Source of the DNA: a virus
Reading direction: 5' to 3' (one strand)
Virus record (IMG/VR): IMGVR_UViG_3300023242_000181
Coordinates: 1-27,823 of that record
Length of the DNA: 27,823 nt
Shown here: one piece after another, positions 2,478 to 24,715 of the stretch
Layout of the letters: every line of letters begins with the position of its first letter
Position numbering within the stretch: the first letter of the stretch is position 1
The notes under the pieces: generated by a model
Seen by the model: only the letters and a program-made list of their open reading frames with translations
Told to the model about the DNA's origin: nothing
Database searches by the model: none
Position numbers and translations under genes: made by a program

Positions 2478-2747
2478 ATGTCTAACTTTTTAGCTAATGC
2501 TTTGCAAAATTCTAACGGTAAATTTGTCACCGTCTCATTCATTAAAAACAATGGCAACAAGCGTATATTAAATGGGCGCTTAGGCGTGGTTAAACACTTG
2601 AAGGGCGGTAAGTCAACTGTAGACACTGCCAACTATATTAATATATACGACATTAAAACGGGTGGTTATCGTAATGTGAGCCGCGATAGCATTGTGGCAC
2701 TGGCTATAGAAGGTGTTAATGTTGTAAACAAACAACACATAGCATAG
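2478..2747 (+). CDS. SH3-like beta-barrel phage protein
   Basis: 89 residues from ATG 2478. An ATG at 2454 is in frame, but AGGAAA (2465-2470) fits the 2478 start. The body, with GKFVTVSFIKNNG, RLGVVKHLKGG and a YDIKTGGYRNVSRD segment, resembles small proteins annotated in marine phages as 'SH3 beta-barrel fold-containing'. From memory, their shared features are the NGRLGV-KHLKGG core and the YD...GYRN tail. Precise function is unknown; such folds often bind nucleic acid or protein. It precedes the regulatory spacer 2748-2993. Confidence 0.6.
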   Translation: MSNFLANALQNSNGKFVTVSFIKNNGNKRILNGRLGVVKHLKGGKSTVDTANYINIYDIKTGGYRNVSRDSIVALAIEGVNVVNKQHIA

Positions 2748-2993
2748 GGTTTCCCCTAGTAGCACAGGCTGTAAACTTGTGCCACACTATCAACAACGTT
2801 TGCTTTAACAGCTCGCAACATGCAACACCATGTGGCACAGGCTAACAGCTCATTAAAAATTTAGTATTGATAGATGGTGCAGTGTGACAGGCTGCACTAG
2901 ACAGGGCTTGTGCTTTGTGGCACAGGCTGCTGCCTTGTATGTTTTTAATAATGAGAGCATACAAACACAGCAATTTCTATAGGAAACAATCAA
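2748..2993 (+). promoter_or_regulatory. Intergenic control region with TGTGNCACA sites
   Basis: A 246-base spacer without an ORF. It contains TGTGCCACA (2778-2786) and TGTGGCACA (2831-2839 and 2916-2924), all copies of the 9-base palindrome TGTG-N-CACA. The 14-mer TGCTTTGTGGCACA at 2911-2924 is an exact repeat of 2406-2419. GCTTGTGC (2906-2913) can pair with GCACAGGC (2920-2927). TTGTGG (2915-2920) and TATGTT (2938-2943), 17 bases apart, could form a weak sigma70 promoter. The third copy of CTATAGGAAA (2977-2986) provides the ribosome binding site for the next gene. Confidence 0.5.
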
Positions 2994-3863
2994 ATGTCAA
3001 ACGTTATATTCTCACGCAAGAGCAGCAACACAGCGCTTAGCATTGACGACATCATTGCACGAGCTCCAGCAGTGTTAGCAACAACACAAAAAGAGACATT
3101 GTCACAGCGCTATCAGCCGCTGCACACACAGAGTCTTATACCAGTGCTAGCAGATTATGGCTACGTGCCAGTGTCAGCAGCACAGAAACGTACACGCAGC
3201 GCAGCTACAGCAGAGCACACGCAGCACATGCTGGCCTTTGCTCATGTTGATAGTGTAGGAGACAATACAGCTAGTGAACGTGGAGAAATTATTCTCTATA
3301 ATTCACATGATGGCACAGGAGCGGTGAAGCTGTTCGCTGGTGCATACCGATTCATTTGTAGTAATGGCATTGTAGCGGGTGATGGCTTTGCTAGTGCTAT
3401 GAAGCACAGCGCTAAAGGCTTGGCAGGGTTTGAAGAGATGTTGAGGGGCACAGTTGAGATGTTGCCGCAGACACTGCACACAATTCAACAACTAAAAGCC
3501 ATACATTTAGACCCTGAACAAATTGCTACCATCATTAAAAAAGCTGCTGCCACACGCTGGGGTATGCTTGAAGAACAAACCGAAGTGAAGGCTGGCACTT
3601 ACATGGTGCCACACCTCCTAAATGCGTTGCAAATGCCACAGCGTATTAATGATGTTTCCAATGATGCCAACACAGTGTTCAATCGTATACAGGAAAACAT
3701 TATTCGTGGTAATGCAATGGTGCTGTCTTTAACTAAGAACAAAGATATTCCAGACACTTACAACACAGCAACACGTAAGGCACGACCCGTTAACAGTGTT
3801 AGTGAAAACATTCGTATCAATCGTGAGTTGTGGGATATTACTACTGAAGTGGCAATGGCTTAA
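2994..3863 (+). CDS. DUF932 domain protein
   Basis: 289 residues. The central part (about 85-165) has the pattern expected of DUF932: histidine/valine strands, then a NSHDGTGAVKLFAGAYRFIC segment and SNGIVAGD. Family members occur widely on phages and plasmids; their biochemical role is unknown to me, and links to recombination or antirestriction are only suggestions. The start has a good binding site (AGGAAA) in the CTATAGGAAA leader. The C-terminal 100 residues look helical. The preceding spacer has multiple dyad sites, so expression is probably controlled there. Confidence 0.7.
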   Translation: MSNVIFSRKSSNTALSIDDIIARAPAVLATTQKETLSQRYQPLHTQSLIPVLADYGYVPVSAAQKRTRSAATAEHTQHMLAFAHVDSVGDNTASERGEIILYNSHDGTGAVKLFAGAYRFICSNGIVAGDGFASAMKHSAKGLAGFEEMLRGTVEMLPQTLHTIQQLKAIHLDPEQIATIIKKAAATRWGMLEEQTEVKAGTYMVPHLLNALQMPQRINDVSNDANTVFNRIQENIIRGNAMVLSLTKNKDIPDTYNTATRKARPVNSVSENIRINRELWDITTEVAMA

Positions 3864-5407: not shown

Positions 5408-5579
5408 TTTGCAACAAGATGTAGCAGCACATTCGTCTAGGTCTTCACTGAGTTTGGAAAGACAGCTAGATATTGTTAACATCATCTTGCATGATGCTGC
5501 TATGTCATCAGAGCGTATTAGGCGTGACATAGTAGAGCAAGACTTAGAAGAGCTTTATAAAGTAGGAGGCACAGACTGA
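5391..5579 (+). CDS. Small protein immediately upstream of integrase (62 aa)
   Basis: 62 residues, helical, acidic C-terminal half (RRDIVEQDLEELYK). AAGGAAA lies seven bases before the ATG. Its stop overlaps the integrase start (TGATG), so the two are translationally coupled. Position suggests a recombination directionality factor or regulator, but I see no helix-turn-helix or winged-helix motif, so this is only contextual. Confidence 0.55.
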   Translation: MNYLHNLQQDVAAHSSRSSLSLERQLDIVNIILHDAAMSSERIRRDIVEQDLEELYKVGGTD

Positions 5580-6694
5580 TGACTGCAGAGCGCTACATGC
5601 AGACAGCTACTATGGCAGATGGTAGTGTTTGCTACCGTTACAACCCCCCAAAGGATGTTATAGAGGCTGGTGTAGTGGTGTCTAAGTATATTGGTAATGA
5701 ATATGATGTGGCACTGGCCTACTGTGCTGAGCAAAACTTAGCTATGGATGTGTGGCGTAAGGAGATGAAGAGGCTACATCACTTGTCTAAAGACAGTAGG
5801 GTAGAAGACATTGTTAAAGCATATATGCTTAGTCACATGTACACAACGCTAGCACCTAAGACACAGATTGATTATGCTTTATGTCTTAACAGTTGGAAGA
5901 CTGAGATAGTGGTGGGTACACTGTTACATAGGGCTAAGGCTTCAGCACTAACAGCACCAGCATGCCAACAGCTATACGACAGAGCCATAAGAAAAGGGAA
6001 GGTGTCACAGGCCAATCACACATTGGCAGTGTATAAGTTGGTGTTTAACTTTGCCATAAACAGGGGCTACATAACACATAATGTGTTTGCTGGTGTTAAA
6101 CGTACACAGACTAAGTCTAGGCGTGTGACATGGAATAGGGAGCACATCAGAGCCTTTCTCAATGTAGCCTACAGCAGGTATGAGTGGAGAAATATAGGTA
6201 TGATTGTAAATATGGCTTATGAATGGGGACAACGGCTAGGTGACATGCGTGTGTTGTTGTGGAGCAACTACAACTTTGACACTGGTGTGTTAACATTGAC
6301 ACAGAGCAAGAGGCGGGCTACGGTGAAGCTGCCTACATCAGAAGGCTTACAGGCTATGCTTAAGCAGCAGCATGATAGCTTTGGGTGGCAGCCATACATA
6401 GCACCATCCACAACTAAGAAGGCTGGAGGTGGTCTTAAAACCTATAACATCACTAGAATATCTGCTATTGGTAATAGCATTATGAAAGAAGCACAGCTGC
6501 CAGAAGAGCTGCAACTGATGGATTTAAGAAGGACAGCTATAACAGAGATGATAGAAGAGGGTGTTCCTGTCACCTCTATAATGGCATTGAGTGGGCATGC
6601 AACACCTAATAGTTTAACACCTTACATTAAGCATACACAAGCTGCTGCTCAGAGAGCACAGGATATGCGTAAGTTTCCAGAGAGATTGATATGA
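5579..6694 (+). CDS. int: Tyrosine recombinase / phage integrase
   Basis: 371 residues, usual length for a phage integrase. Residues about 70-175 form the SAM-like core-binding domain. The catalytic domain shows Arg219 in the box (GQRLGDMR), a beta-hairpin Lys244 (TQSKRR), Arg317 in MDLRRTAIT, His340 (LSGHATPNS) and nucleophile Tyr349 (PYIKHT). The usual HxxR histidine is replaced by Met314 (MxxR); from memory this also occurs in other marine-phage integrases. The enzyme would catalyse site-specific integration and excision between attP and a host attB. The start overlaps the preceding stop, and a small membrane-peptide gene begins inside its stop codon. No attP core can be identified here. 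Confidence 0.9.
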   Translation: MTAERYMQTATMADGSVCYRYNPPKDVIEAGVVVSKYIGNEYDVALAYCAEQNLAMDVWRKEMKRLHHLSKDSRVEDIVKAYMLSHMYTTLAPKTQIDYALCLNSWKTEIVVGTLLHRAKASALTAPACQQLYDRAIRKGKVSQANHTLAVYKLVFNFAINRGYITHNVFAGVKRTQTKSRRVTWNREHIRAFLNVAYSRYEWRNIGMIVNMAYEWGQRLGDMRVLLWSNYNFDTGVLTLTQSKRRATVKLPTSEGLQAMLKQQHDSFGWQPYIAPSTTKKAGGGLKTYNITRISAIGNSIMKEAQLPEELQLMDLRRTAITEMIEEGVPVTSIMALSGHATPNSLTPYIKHTQAAAQRAQDMRKFPERLI

Positions 6695-8319: not shown

Positions 8320-8663
8320 ATGATATTAATGGGACATCAAACGTAGTACTGTTAAAAGAAAACGAAGACGGCAGCGCTGTTTATCAATTTGACTTTCCGC
8401 AGGAAGCAGTATCAGCTTTGACAAGGCTAGGTATACTCACTGCAATAGAGGCAGGGCTGGCTATCGCTAAAAAGCTATCACCCGATTATGAAGCTGAAGT
8501 AGAGTTCACAGAGGAGATTAAAAACTTGGCTGAAGATGCTGGGTTTGCTATGTGGCGGGATGAGAGTTACAAGCCGGAGGGTGATGTGGTAGACTGGGCT
8601 TGTAAGTATGACAAAGAGTTAGTTAAATTCTATCATTTGGTTAAAGAGAAGTATGACAATTGA
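8316..8663 (+). CDS. Hypothetical acidic protein (115 aa)
   Basis: 115 residues. Residues 9-50 read VVLLKENEDGSAVYQFDF and then a helix with RLGILTAIEAGL, a block often found in phage proteins of unknown role. The second half, with AEDAGFAMWRDESY, may be a separate small domain. The end (KEKYDN) again overlaps the next gene's start with an AAAGAGAAGTATGAC signal. Confidence 0.5.
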   Translation: MNDINGTSNVVLLKENEDGSAVYQFDFPQEAVSALTRLGILTAIEAGLAIAKKLSPDYEAEVEFTEEIKNLAEDAGFAMWRDESYKPEGDVVDWACKYDKELVKFYHLVKEKYDN

Positions 8664-9096
8664 ATCATTAAACTTATGGCACAAACGTGCCCGACCAGCA
8701 CCGACAGAAGAATCTTTCAACGTGCAGCTAGGTTGTCACCTTGAAGAGGTGGTGGAGATGTTGGAGACGCTATACATTTCAGAAGACGGTGAAGATTCTG
8801 ATGAGGCGTGGAACGCAAGGGTATGGCTAAATAGATGTGCTGAAAAACTAAAAAGTGGAGAATATACAGCTACTATAAGTAATCGCAAAGAGTTGTTAGA
8901 CAGCCTAGCAGATCAGATTGTTACAGCGGTAGGTGTTGCACATTGTGCTCAAATGAACATTGTTGCTGCTTGTGAGGAAGTTAACACAAGCAACTGGAGC
9001 AAGTTTGATAGCAATGGTATGCCAGACTTTGATAGCAATGGTAAGGTAGATAAGCCACCTTCATATAAACCACCCAATTTAGATGGCATGTATTGA
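8653..9096 (+). CDS. MazG-like / PRA-PH NTP pyrophosphohydrolase
   Basis: 147 residues. Features of the all-alpha NTP pyrophosphohydrolase superfamily are visible: FNVQLGCHLEEVVEML (Glu-rich helix with EExxE-like spacing), LLDSLADQIVTAVG (D-x3-D), and EVNTSNWSKF followed by a Gly/Pro-rich tail ending in PPNLDGMY. The 'EV-x-SN-x-SKF' block is typical of phosphoribosyl-ATP pyrophosphohydrolase-like phage proteins. Such enzymes hydrolyse nucleoside triphosphates to monophosphates and pyrophosphate, adjusting dNTP or alarmone pools. The gene is last in the small-gene operon and lies before the replication block, which fits. Confidence 0.7.
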   Translation: MTIESLNLWHKRARPAPTEESFNVQLGCHLEEVVEMLETLYISEDGEDSDEAWNARVWLNRCAEKLKSGEYTATISNRKELLDSLADQIVTAVGVAHCAQMNIVAACEEVNTSNWSKFDSNGMPDFDSNGKVDKPPSYKPPNLDGMY

Positions 9097-9121
9097 AAAC
9101 TTGTGCTACACTACCAACGAC
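9097..9121 (+). promoter_or_regulatory. 25-base motif shared with 2773-2797
   Basis: Bases 9097-9121 match 2773-2797 at 22 of 25 positions. The core CTTGTGCTACACTACCAAC contains TGCTACACT, which looks like an extended -10 (TGn then TACACT, 9107-9112), but no good -35 is present at 17 bases. The 2773 copy contains the TGTGCCACA palindrome. It may be an operator or an activator-dependent promoter; it lies immediately before a foldable region. Confidence 0.4.
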
Positions 9122-9360
9122 CTACTGGGGAAGCCGACACCAAGCGGTAGGTTGTTTGTTTAAGGTTGATACTTGGGGCTACTGACAGATCAACCAGCGT
9201 GGGGACATAACCTCTAGAGCGCGTCAGGGAGACTACATCAAGTCTTAATAGTCTGGAGTGAAGAGTAAGCAGGATGCACAGCCGCTACTCATGTGACCGT
9301 CACAGGCACTGGTGTCCGAGCTAACACAACATGTGGTGGCTTGGTGAAACTATGTCTGTG
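9116..9360 (+). ncRNA. Candidate structured non-coding RNA or leader
   Basis: A 305-base spacer (9097-9401) without an ORF and with more G+C than its neighbours. Forward-strand stems: 9116-9125 with 9147-9156 (ten pairs, one G-U), 9164-9170 with 9189-9195 (GGTTGAT/ATCAACC), AGACTA with TAGTCT in 9230-9254, GAGTAaGC with GCTACTC in about 9263-9290, and the dyad TGTGAC-C-GTCACA near 9293-9305. It starts downstream of the 25-base motif and ends before the primase gene. Candidates are a stable phage RNA, a 5' UTR controlling replication, or an origin-proximal element. I do not recognise tmRNA, RNase P, or a group I intron core. Confidence 0.45.
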
Positions 9361-9401
9361 ATAATTGTTTTTAATTCTTTTATTCTTTTAACTAAGAAGC
9401 T

Positions 9402-11030
9402 ATGACCTTTGTCTCAACACATCATCCATGTGATAGCTGTGGTAGCAATGATGCTTTGTCTTATAACGAAGATGGTTCATCATATTGTTTCAGCTGTCAG
9501 GACTATCAACAATCAATTAACACAGAAGAGAAACAAAAGAATATGTTAACTAAGAAGCCATCTATTGCTACAGAAGCACAGATAAAAGAATTTAAACTAA
9601 TGTTAGAAGGTAATAGTGTTTCTATTAGCGATAGACGCATTAGCAAAGCAACAGCAGATAAGTATGGTGTTGTTAGGAATGAAAACAAAATGTTCTTTCC
9701 TTACACTGATAGTGACAACACAGTTGTTGGAGCTAAGGTTCGTAGTGTTAAAGATAAGGAGTTCTTTATCGCTGTTAAAGAAGGTAGTGATTGGAAGACA
9801 GCCACACTATTCGGACAACAACTGTTCACTGCTGGTGGTAAATATGTCACTGTTGTTGAAGGCGAGTTCGATGCGCTAGCAGCCTTTCAGATGTTAGGTA
9901 GTAAGTACCCTGTAGTATCTATACGTAATGGTGCAGGGTCTGCTCTGAAGGATTGCACTGAGCAGTATGAATGGTTGAATAGCTTTGAGAATATTGTTGT
10001 TCACTTTGATGGGGATAAGCAAGGCAAGGAAGCAGCTACTAAAGTGGCTGAGCTGTTTGGTGTTAAAGCTAAGGTGTTTAAGCCTGATGCTAATTACAAG
10101 GACGCATGCGACTGGCTCTCCGAGAGTAAGGAAGCTGCCTATGTTCAGCGTTGGTGGGGTGCTGAAGGCCATGTACCTGATGGCATCATTGCTGGTAGTA
10201 GTCTATGGGATGAAGTTTCTAAACCTGTTGCACAAGCTGATTGCTACTACCCTTGGGCAGGCTTGAATGACTTAACATATGGCATCAGGCATGGTGAGTT
10301 GGTTACACTAACAGCAGGTAGTGGCTTAGGTAAGAGCCAAGTGCTGCGAGAAATTGTGTGGCATCTGTTGAACCATAGTGAAGACAACATTGGATTAATG
10401 TTCTTGGAAGAGAGTGTTAAGAAGACAGCACTGTCGCTCATGTCACTAGCTGTTGACATCCCCCTACACCTACCTAACGAAGTGGATGACACAGAGAAGC
10501 GCAGGGCTTTTGATTTAACATTAGGCACTGATCGTCTGTATTTGTTTGACCACTTTGGTAGCACGTCTGCTGATAACATTGTTAATCGTGTACGCTACTT
10601 AGCTAAAGGCTTACAGTGTAAGTATGTAGTTCTTGATCACCTATCAATCATTGTGTCTGCACAGGATAATGCTGATGAACGTAAGGCCATTGATGAAATA
10701 ATGACTAAGCTACGTATGCTGGTACAGGAGACTGGCATCGCCTTGTTAGTTGTTAGTCACTTGAAGCGTCCTGTTGATAGAGGCCATGAAGAAGGTGCAG
10801 CCACTAGCCTTGCACAGCTACGAGGCAGTGCTTCAATTGCACAGCTCAGTGATATGGTGATAGGATTGGAGCGTAACGGGCAAGCTGTTGACATAGATAT
10901 ACGCAACACCACACAGGTTAGGGTGCTGAAGAATAGATTCAATGGCATCACAGGACCTGCATGTCAGCTTAAGTTTGATCACAAGACAGGTAGGATGTTT
11001 GAGACAGCAGAAATGGATGAAAGTTTATGA
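9402..11030 (+). CDS. Bifunctional primase-helicase (T7 gp4-like)
   Basis: 542 residues. N terminus: zinc ribbon C10-x2-C13...C29-x2-C32, used to recognise priming sites. TOPRIM core at about 148-225, with Glu153 (VVEGEFDAL) and Asp203-x-Asp205 (HFDGDKQG). A RecA-like DnaB helicase follows: Walker A 305-312 (AGSGLGKS), Walker B-like VVLDHLS (Asp412), SHLKRP (His453) and RGSASIAQLSD. This is the order of T7 gp4: it synthesises RNA primers and unwinds the fork as a hexamer. No strong Shine-Dalgarno precedes ATG 9402. An in-frame ATG at codon 48 would give a form without the zinc ribbon, as with T7 gp4B, but its binding site is poor. The stop overlaps the polymerase start (ATGA). Confidence 0.92.
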   Translation: MTFVSTHHPCDSCGSNDALSYNEDGSSYCFSCQDYQQSINTEEKQKNMLTKKPSIATEAQIKEFKLMLEGNSVSISDRRISKATADKYGVVRNENKMFFPYTDSDNTVVGAKVRSVKDKEFFIAVKEGSDWKTATLFGQQLFTAGGKYVTVVEGEFDALAAFQMLGSKYPVVSIRNGAGSALKDCTEQYEWLNSFENIVVHFDGDKQGKEAATKVAELFGVKAKVFKPDANYKDACDWLSESKEAAYVQRWWGAEGHVPDGIIAGSSLWDEVSKPVAQADCYYPWAGLNDLTYGIRHGELVTLTAGSGLGKSQVLREIVWHLLNHSEDNIGLMFLEESVKKTALSLMSLAVDIPLHLPNEVDDTEKRRAFDLTLGTDRLYLFDHFGSTSADNIVNRVRYLAKGLQCKYVVLDHLSIIVSAQDNADERKAIDEIMTKLRMLVQETGIALLVVSHLKRPVDRGHEEGAATSLAQLRGSASIAQLSDMVIGLERNGQAVDIDIRNTTQVRVLKNRFNGITGPACQLKFDHKTGRMFETAEMDESL

Positions 11031-20831: not shown

Positions 20832-21003
20832 TGGGGAACGCTCAGCACCTTTGAAGATTCAATATGGTCAAGGTGCTTATGCTTTTAGTAGAGGATGGTT
20901 GAGGAATCAATATGATCCTGATACCATTCAAGGTAAAGAATGGCAGAGAGGTTTTGATGCTGCGTTCTTTGATAACCAAGACAGACTACTTCAGCGTCCT
21001 TAG
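20809..21003 (+). CDS. RMF-like small protein (64 aa), 3' end in tRNA
   Basis: 64 residues, basic. The segment YDPDTIQGKEWQRGFDAAFF resembles the C-terminal half of the ribosome modulation factor family (W-x2-G-x2-x-A), and similar short proteins occur in marine phages; assignment is tentative. It overlaps the nuclease gene by 23 bases. The last three codons and stop TAG (20994-21003) lie in the acceptor/D region of the following tRNA, so the protein end is read through tRNA DNA. This may be a scar of gene insertion or tight packing. Confidence 0.55.
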   Translation: MQPKRQHNGERSAPLKIQYGQGAYAFSRGWLRNQYDPDTIQGKEWQRGFDAAFFDNQDRLLQRP

Positions 21004-21069
21004 CTCAGTGGATAGAGCAATGGTCTTCTACACCATTGGTCGGGAGTTCGAATCTCTCAGGACGCACCA
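20994..21069 (+). tRNA. tRNA-Arg (anticodon TCT)
   Basis: Full cloverleaf: acceptor GCGTCCT (20994-21000) with AGGACGC (21059-21065); D stem GCTC/GAGC; anticodon stem ATGGT/ACCAT with loop CTTCTAC (21025-21031), anticodon TCT at 21027-21029; T arm GGGAG-TTCGAAT-CTCTC (21042-21058). Discriminator A and encoded CCA follow. It reads AGA (and AGG by wobble). Its 5' end overlaps the upstream gene by ten bases. Confidence 0.96.
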
Positions 21070-24100: not shown

Positions 24101-24715
24101 TTTTAACGTAGCCACAACTTCATCGGATAGTTGTGTAGGGATATCCTTACCTATGTTGATTGCTTTCTGTGCTGCTATCTTTTGCTCATCGGTAGCATTG
24201 AGCGCCCAAGTTAAATCATTAGCTAAATCAAAATCACTCTTAGACAACGTACCTACAAAAGATTTAACAGCTTCTTTATCATCTTTAGGTATAACCATAT
24301 TAGGATATCTAACAGACATAAACTTACGTATATCAGCTACCTTTTCTTTATTAGTTGCTACCTCTGGTATAGTCGTGTAACTTCTTTTAGCTGTAGCTGT
24401 AGAGTCAAAAGAACCTACAGTTTGATACTCAGAACCTAAGCCCATTAAATCAACAGGCTCTTCCTCTGGTAACGGTTTGAAACCCCCTCTATCAGGGGCT
24501 TTTTTAGGGGCCAGAGAAGGTTGAGTTTTACTTTCTATAGGCAAAGCTTCATCTAATGTAGCAGGAAACATTAACTCAGGTTCAACCTTCATAGGCAAAG
24601 CTTCATCTAATGTAGCAGGAAACATTAACTCAGGTTCAACCTTCATAGGCAAAGCTTCATCTAGTGTAGCGGGAAACACCAATTCTTCTTCCTCTATTGG
24701 TTTTATTGTTGCCAT
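21113..24715 (-). CDS. Large structural protein, putative internal virion/DNA-ejection protein
   Basis: 1200 residues. The N terminus (about 10-60) has three copies of an 18-residue unit with FPATLDEALP. A Gly/Ala-rich membrane-like stretch lies near 205-300 (VGGLAGFGVRKAATQ, AIVAAVGAVFGG), and long helical regions follow, with another Gly/Met hydrophobic block near 800 (SIGMGIIAGAMM). Size, helicity and place at the end of a virion block fit internal-core or DNA-ejection proteins like T7 gp16, but I see no lytic transglycosylase motif. It lies two bases after the upstream gene's stop, so is probably coupled to it. Function is inferred from context. Confidence 0.5.
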   Translation of the reverse strand: MATIKPIEEEELVFPATLDEALPMKVEPELMFPATLDEALPMKVEPELMFPATLDEALPIESKTQPSLAPKKAPDRGGFKPLPEEEPVDLMGLGSEYQTVGSFDSTATAKRSYTTIPEVATNKEKVADIRKFMSVRYPNMVIPKDDKEAVKSFVGTLSKSDFDLANDLTWALNATDEQKIAAQKAINIGKDIPTQLSDEVVATLKSPSTYVGGLAGFGVRKAATQGIKKAITVAVTVAGTEAVVSGLQNVVTQKGDLALGRATTAEAQQTLKDLGAQQDYSYAQTAIVAAVGAVFGGIEGVGLAKASKNPKEQMADLIAKNKKTPTQLNAATQELLAKFQAREKEIYTDPLFASKEARQEARQGSLDVIDTPQEVTDAVLNKETIKGLFDTAKQLFIDDPTLLPDINDTRSITQLVIDTLEKSGVDSVQQAAKLAGVNEKEFFDAFKVTVSEAGTVLQNSSALARSIGKLIAGQDPELDAVMKRIAEGSHGQEYMTGSFMTSVKNVTDASVGLAVSSLSTTILNTAGLVGAVTFNTLVDVVDATIRHSDRLIGDMRGNVAINKSRIKETTDGIMTDSFYAIGRIFDSGYSNELYDSVMKFNPRLNNMLIQTSPDVDRAGMNKYVDMLNAANRSVEMFVRKPMLVSSLRTRMQDLELSFDDFVANNRPIPPALLEQSVNDTLALTFSSGFRKTGEKSIEGVFEGAASSIVRTVNENTLLKIGVNIVMPFYRFGLNSLRYSYRMTPMSGAGGMLEFKKSASLKRQATELAAAGKGKEAQEALYASAGVAYEGRRKMIESSIGMGIIAGAMMDRENNADLSFDKTRNSKGEVADIGTLAPFSFVYAMAEAALIMKDMAQDLYYTMSMTPEERVKEAQLYKDEAAKTDVIGEKQALINKAELLELQRIRDFDGARFMEILAGWGRMGGTQKTILDNIKDIFEESITSGSTLRSAGAFVGDFASRFDNFLNPVYDLYNLMSDDYRQVDSRAPTTLDLPAFADAAIAAAASQVPPVKQFLQDKPSLFQEQTPQMASFTRYLTGERPVEPTDAIQNELLRLNIEPYRIYKRSGDRNYDNLRVKVAGPVIREAVTDLLADPDYKDQSKNEQVVSIEKRISDAFAETREESLDLYSEQDEKGSVVMRYKGMSKKERQAAEDRFVKENGTKPTTLDDMISIIDGEYSTAKDIGSFASGGLVSQTNKLLAK
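24541..24680 (-). repeat. 54-base in-frame tandem repeat in the 1200-aa gene
   Basis: Two exact 54-base units (24541-24594 and 24595-24648) and a partial, diverged third (from 24649). Each encodes 18 residues with FPATLDEALP in the N terminus. Exact DNA identity points to recent duplication or recombination-maintained homogeneity. Confidence 0.9.

Follow-up and report, generated by a model that had tools for sequence, protein, structure and literature searches.

A conserved structured RNA of phages, probably a control element at the start of operons

The spacer RNA and its homologues

We analysed a 27.8-kb virus record (IMG/VR record IMGVR_UViG_3300023242_000181, positions 1-27,823; hereafter the window), in which a preliminary description had placed a possible undescribed structured RNA in the spacer upstream of the DNA primase-helicase gene. 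This spacer carries a conserved RNA, spanning approximately positions 9116-9362, which belongs to a previously uncatalogued phage RNA family whose members recur with covarying base pairs and probably control the phage operons that follow them. Two open reading frames (ORFs) bound the spacer:

8653-9096, plus strand: ORF for a MazG-like NTP-PPase, 5' of the spacer (PHROG 671, E 5.9e-29)
9402-11030, plus strand: ORF for the DNA primase-helicase, 3' of the spacer (PHROG 239, E 2.7e-173)

The 305 bases between these ORFs, a gap already seen in the preliminary description, contain no ORF of at least 50 amino acids on either strand, and a coding role was rejected on this ground. In the whole window, ARAGORN detected only a tRNA-Arg (20994-21069), and the spacer RNA is neither a transfer RNA (tRNA) nor a transfer-messenger RNA. 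The G+C content reaches 51% in positions 9114-9362 compared to 41% in the whole window, a value attained by 5 of 552 segments of the same size, in agreement with the enrichment described earlier. Compared with shuffles, the plus strand folds better, at z -2.3 over the entire spacer and -2.6 over 9114-9378, whereas the minus strand (z +1.2) does not. Fold energy by itself is modest support, and homology and covariation decide the matter: the single-sequence z values are modest enough to fit chance folding of an idle spacer, but this explanation is refuted by covarying homologues in 35 distinct lineages and retains next to no probability.

A first nhmmer search of the spacer against 80 IMG/VR primase loci yielded one relative, located 5' of the primase at locus L005. 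Two motifs common to the window and L005 (CTAGAGCG and TAATAGTCTGG) were combined into a gapped pattern, and three more viral scans with relaxed patterns were run, retaining only matches in which the P3 helix described below extends. As all members outside the window are pattern-scan matches requiring two or three of the core motifs (CGUGG, UAGAGCG, and AAUAGUCU), the true spread and the motif variability of the family are underestimated. In total, 77 places were retained, comprising the window, 75 IMG/VR contigs, and the GenBank entry MW202713.1 (L126) of an uncultivated lambdoid podovirus, and clustering reduced them to 35 distinct RNAs, from at least 35 phage lineages that differ in base composition. 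Most of L173-L198, which match the motifs alone and lie in a repeated viral gene, were discarded, their P3 having four pairs. The first 18 RNAs were used to build a covariance model, which scored the MW202713.1 copy, outside the training set, at 59.9 bits and matched the whole window at 9160-9261 only. When 69 sources, most of them primase loci, were searched with the model, the window and L029 were the only members found besides L126, and L005-type loci carry the RNA too. In MW202713.1, an annotated "hypothetical protein" overlies the RNA (2572-3021) and was probably called as a gene in error.

Known RNA families were ruled out, as Rfam 15 gave no match at the gathering threshold for the window RNA or 15 homologous loci, and nothing meaningful up to E 10 for the window, L131, and L104. 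A blastn search of the RNA against GenBank phages returned a single match, and text searches of the open-access literature found no description of it. A pattern scan of GTDB (84,980 bacterial and archaeal species) gave 14 matches, which we consider chance because their P3 has only 3-5 pairs; the eight weak matches obtained with the model in 398 Pseudomonadota genomes appear to be gene sequence rather than RNA. The presence of the RNA in bacterial genomes was therefore rejected, and the family looks phage-borne. The RNA is also absent near the primase of the Pelagibacter phages HTVC115P, HTVC103P, and HTVC104P, the nearest cultured primase relatives, and thus looks optional as well.

Helices of the RNA

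The helices were evaluated with a swap test, in which 3' strands are exchanged between RNAs and the loss of stem score is measured. The RNA in the window comprises the following elements:

9116-9125 with 9147-9156, plus strand: P1 hairpin, from fold prediction; the loop (9126-9146) contains CACCAAG
9140-9144, plus strand: kissing strand CCAAG in the P1 loop, partner 9172-9176; covaries in relatives
9164-9170 with 9189-9195, plus strand: P2 hairpin, loop ACTTGGGG...CAG; swap test z 10.6
9172-9176, plus strand: kissing strand CTTGG in the P2 loop, partner 9140-9144; covaries in relatives
9198-9204, plus strand: single-stranded conserved motif CGTGGGG, of which CGTGG belonged to the search pattern
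9212-9218 (CTCTAGA) with 9252-9258 (TCTGGAG), plus strand: P3, from RNAalifold, covariation, and the swap test
9229-9234 with 9241-9246, plus strand: P4 hairpin; swap test z 3.5
9263-9267 with 9286-9290, plus strand: P5 hairpin within 9263-9290, predicted and tentative
9292-9296, plus strand: word copy 1, TGTGA, which can pair with 9300-9304 (TCACA)
9299-9308 (GTCACAGGCA) with 9353-9362 (TGTCTGTGAT), plus strand: P6, predicted, followed by a U-rich stretch (9366-9385)
9357-9361, plus strand: word copy 2, TGTGA, within the P6 3' strand

P2, P3, and P4 covary. RNAalifold, unaided, returned P3 as the one helix, with 96% of cells paired. Its covariation score of 0.461 compares with 0.149 in shuffled alignments (0/500 reaching it) and at most 0.175 with the partner slid, and its swap test gave z 15.3. 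Pairs 6 and 7 of P3, which were not used in selecting members, are canonical in 62 of 70 cases and show all four Watson-Crick types across the 35 distinct RNAs, whereas pair 8 is at chance level (11/35), so the helix stops at pair 7. A U-G pair is maintained within P3 in 28 of the 35, suggesting that the molecule works as RNA and not as DNA. P3 encloses the motif UAGAGCG (9215-9221), P4, and AAUAGUCU (9247-9254).

The 7-pair stem of the preliminary description, P2, is indeed perfect in the window (GGTTGAT/ATCAACC); across the family, its pairs 2-5 show all four Watson-Crick types and pair 1 shows three. P4 has varied pairs among 24 RNAs and is shortened or lost in the L129 branch. Since both were placed by picking the best stem, the swap test is independent evidence for them, whereas counts of their pairs alone are not. 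The ten-pair stem proposed earlier corresponds to P1 (AACGACCTAC/GTAGGTTGTT, one G-U), in which G9119 is replaced by A in L086-L091, turning the G-U into an A-U pair; as a class across lineages, P1 is weakly supported (swap test z 2.0). The pairing between the P1 and P2 loops is kept with five different sequences in the window's branch, the relatives having CCGAG/CTCGG, CCTGG/CCAGG, CCTTG/CAAGG, and CCAG/CTGG. As the corresponding test over all RNAs was not significant, we claim this kissing pair for the window's branch only.

The helices downstream of P3 are supported as a class (swap test z 5.3), and the P6 arrangement recurs in L005 and L029. For P5, substitutions give no support, and G9265A in L086 disrupts one pair. 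A dyad had been described near 9293-9305; it exists (TGTGA-CCG-TCACA) one base off, at 9292-9304, and is part of an alternative-pairing and direct-repeat arrangement rather than a simple stem. With covarying helices and a kissing pair in the spacers of unrelated phages and no Rfam family to receive it, the suspected structured RNA is thus borne out by both the covariation analysis and the Rfam scan that had been suggested for it.

The repeated word

Most of the RNAs contain a word of 7-10 nucleotides (nt) after P3 that occurs again 60-82 nt downstream, so that the two copies flank P6. A repeat of at least 7 nt is present in 28 of 50 RNAs, compared to a mean of 6.3 (maximum 15) when the 3' halves are exchanged. 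The words vary across phages and match within each, as in AAGGGAAA, TAGAGAAA, AAGAGGAA, AAAAGCACC, and TGGGTCA, and the same rule holds for GAAGCATTG, AAGCTAATC, AGGGTGATA, and CCATGAAC, among others. L106 and L143 have both flanks and nearly the whole RNA in common, with a different word at both places; conversely, L131, L152, L156, and L160 have the same word despite different flanks. In L098 and L143, copy 2 occupies the position expected for a ribosome-binding site. L105 and L136 share a conserved, unexplained CTAGTGCGAGGATTCCATCCGAGCTAA just after word copy 2.

In some members, the word has a candidate partner within the same RNA. The 5' strand of P6 can pair with either word copy in L005 and L029, and a U run follows the P6 alternative in L029. 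The predicted 5' end of the RNA offers the word a pairing partner in L137, L147, and L153, as does a segment near the likely 5' end in L145.

Such a word is also reminiscent of a guide RNA class with a short programmable segment, in which the internal copy would recognise a nucleic-acid partner defined by the copy at the 3' end. If so, the word would be free to change provided that both copies change together. A model in which the flank determines guide and target is, however, weakened by the four loci that keep the word while their flanks differ, as the second copy follows the RNA instead of the flank, and the copy-to-copy substitutions lack the direction expected for RNA-DNA wobble. We regard a guide function as distinctly unlikely.

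Operon context and possible modes of action

The RNA is followed by a primase-helicase gene in the window, L005, and L029, and by other genes in most members, which rules out a primase-specific leader. These include genes for a replication initiator (L106 and L128), Erf (L145), a helicase (L159), the terminase small subunit TerS (L147 and L149), an HNH protein (L161), and an RNase H-like protein (L096; L104 and L108 encode similar proteins). They share no common pathway, and there is no universal protein partner. Of 40 downstream genes, 32 are co-directional with the RNA; of 37 upstream genes, 20 are. The frequent primase, replication initiator, Erf, helicase, and RNase H-like neighbours would suit a replication origin or primer RNA, whose transcript would form an R-loop near copy 2 and be cut to prime synthesis. 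Yet some members adjoin TerS, the Pelagibacter phages named above lack the RNA near their primase, and there is no direct sign of a replication start, making this role improbable.

All statements on promoters and terminators are based on consensus matches. A promoter-like score of at least 9 is found upstream of 17 of the 35 RNAs, compared to 6-9 in control segments. Two further features of the window are relevant here:

9098-9121, plus strand: motif AACTTGTGCTACACTACCAACGAC, shared with 2774-2797, with 0 occurrences expected by chance
9104-9112, plus strand: extended -10 promoter-like TGCTACACT, predicted start at approximately 9118-9120, at the foot of P1

The promoter-like site of the window has a weak -35 element (ATGGCA, spacing 18), and better promoters with the -10 box equally far from the core are found in L092, L098, and L105. 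A motif shared with another intergenic region had been reported earlier and was recovered as AACTTGTGCYACACTAYCAACRAC at 2774-2797 and 9098-9121. The second copy of this promoter-like sequence, in the region 2770-2797, is followed by a spacer of approximately 200 bases without the RNA core.

The loci follow two layouts. In the first, the promoter immediately precedes P1 (the window, L092, L098, and L105), and in the second (the L129 branch, L096, L104, and others), a leader of approximately 160 nt lies between promoter and core and contains, 82-97 bases ahead of the core, a strong hairpin resembling a terminator. The L129 branch has a conserved unit with the -10 box and the second repeat as its ends, outside which the flanks differ; between L156 and L160, 100% identity is confined to this unit. 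The sequence of L131 diverges from L160 and L152 at the end of copy 2, and a small gene right after copy 2 in the latter two is absent in L131.

We tentatively infer that the RNA is a cis-acting leader, made up of a conserved core and a strand-exchange platform. A host-type promoter would start the transcript at or upstream of P1, and the core would fold first, with P1 kissing P2, followed by the P3/P4 unit with the invariant UAGAGCG and AAUAGUCU. The core may then bind something common to many hosts, such as a small ligand, RNA polymerase, or a Nus-type factor, and its state would select between two mutually exclusive downstream pairings, in which the P6 5' strand, or the RNA 5' end in some relatives, pairs with word copy 1 or copy 2. 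This choice would set read-through or translation of the following operon, here that of the primase-polymerase. The two words would stay alike while the sequence drifts because the strands compete for them. This is the most economical reading, and the covarying structure, the position ahead of co-directional operon-heading genes, the promoters of many members, and the co-varying words speak for it. A riboswitch would have a conserved aptamer in the 5' leader of genes; the covarying core does precede co-directional genes in those 32 of 40 cases, but the genes have no pathway in common. It would also have mutually exclusive pairings in an expression platform; such pairings are present in L005 and L029, are weak in the window, and were not found in most other members.

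Several observations speak against this leader. The repeat in the window is just 5 nt, weak here while strong in relatives, and a complement of the word in cis was not found in most members; the signal for such a complement in the 5' domain rests on few members and fails in L166. L097, L105, L107, and L110 lack a close co-directional gene. A consensus scan of the window spacer revealed no two-hexamer sigma70 promoter and no terminator, and the terminator-like hairpin between promoter and core in about a dozen members is not explained by a simple leader switch.

Alternatively, the RNA may be a free-standing noncoding RNA that is transcribed from a promoter of its own, has its 3' end, through processing or termination, near word copy 2, and acts in trans, via its core and word, on RNA, protein, or DNA of the host or the phage. 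The lack of a fixed neighbour gene, the frequency of upstream promoters relative to controls, the cassette edges kept at the -10 box and copy 2 with flanks differing on both sides, and the members without a close co-directional gene all favour this. The strong bias towards co-directional downstream genes, the location of copy 2 where a ribosome-binding site is expected in L098 and L143, and the lack, in most members, of a clear terminator downstream of copy 2 oppose it, and we consider it rather doubtful.

The terminator-like hairpins beside the core in about a dozen members also bring to mind put-like processive antitermination, in which the nascent core would bind RNA polymerase and read through operon terminators with no phage protein. 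This would agree with an RNA that heads replication and late operons and has no universal protein partner, as put requires RNA and RNA polymerase only (PMC9378689). However, the hairpin precedes the core rather than following it, short or opposite-strand genes follow some members, and put differs in size and core, as detailed below, so that this mechanism appears unlikely.

Large conserved phage RNAs of unknown function are few. The position of this RNA ahead of replication operons as well as packaging operons suggests that phage development is subject to a shared control at the RNA level, in which the host RNA polymerase or a widespread ligand may take part, and the co-varying repeated words are a puzzle open to direct experiment.

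Some features elsewhere in the window were noted in passing. A 24-bp tandem repeat (CAACAACAACAACAGCGACACCAC, approximately nine units, 700-930) precedes a 321-amino-acid ORF, and three 54-bp tandem repeats (24537-24698) lie within a 1200-amino-acid ORF on the minus strand. The leader motif CTATAGGAAA-N-ATG occurs before three early genes (1975-2006, 2459-2492, and 2975-3008), possibly as a ribosome-binding or promoter element common to them. An integrase gene (5579-6694) and the tRNA-Arg gene (20994-21069) raise the possibility of a temperate phage whose attachment site is a tRNA.

Among known systems, the bridge RNA, TldR, and CreA-type guides likewise have an RNA word, here of 7-10 nt, identical to a nearby site, but the new RNA lacks a common effector protein and its second copy moves with the RNA cassette. 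GOLLD and ROOL are large structured RNAs carried by phages without a known protein partner. The new RNA is shorter, lies outside any tRNA cluster in the window, and matches no Rfam family, GOLLD and ROOL included if Rfam contains them. The late leader of lambda pR'/tR' (6S RNA) consists of a promoter, a short leader, a terminator, and the downstream operon, an order that has its counterpart in the L129 branch; in contrast to lambda, no Q gene is shown at most loci, and the RNA of MW202713.1 lies upstream of an annotated antitermination gene. As in riboswitches and attenuation leaders, the conserved core of the new RNA is succeeded by a variable part where two strands compete for one partner (seen in L005 and L029), but the new RNA precedes many unrelated genes and the competing partner was not found in most members. 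Finally, the put RNA of HK022 is approximately 70 nt long with two stem-loops and works with RNA and RNA polymerase alone (PMC9378689). Compared by description, the new RNA is larger (approximately 250-400 nt, with P1-P4 and P6) and adds the P1-P2 kissing interaction, the P3/P4 core with UAGAGCG and AAUAGUCU, and the repeated word, but like putL and putR, it is a phage RNA that would be read at operon heads from a sigma70-like promoter and for which the host RNA polymerase alone could suffice.
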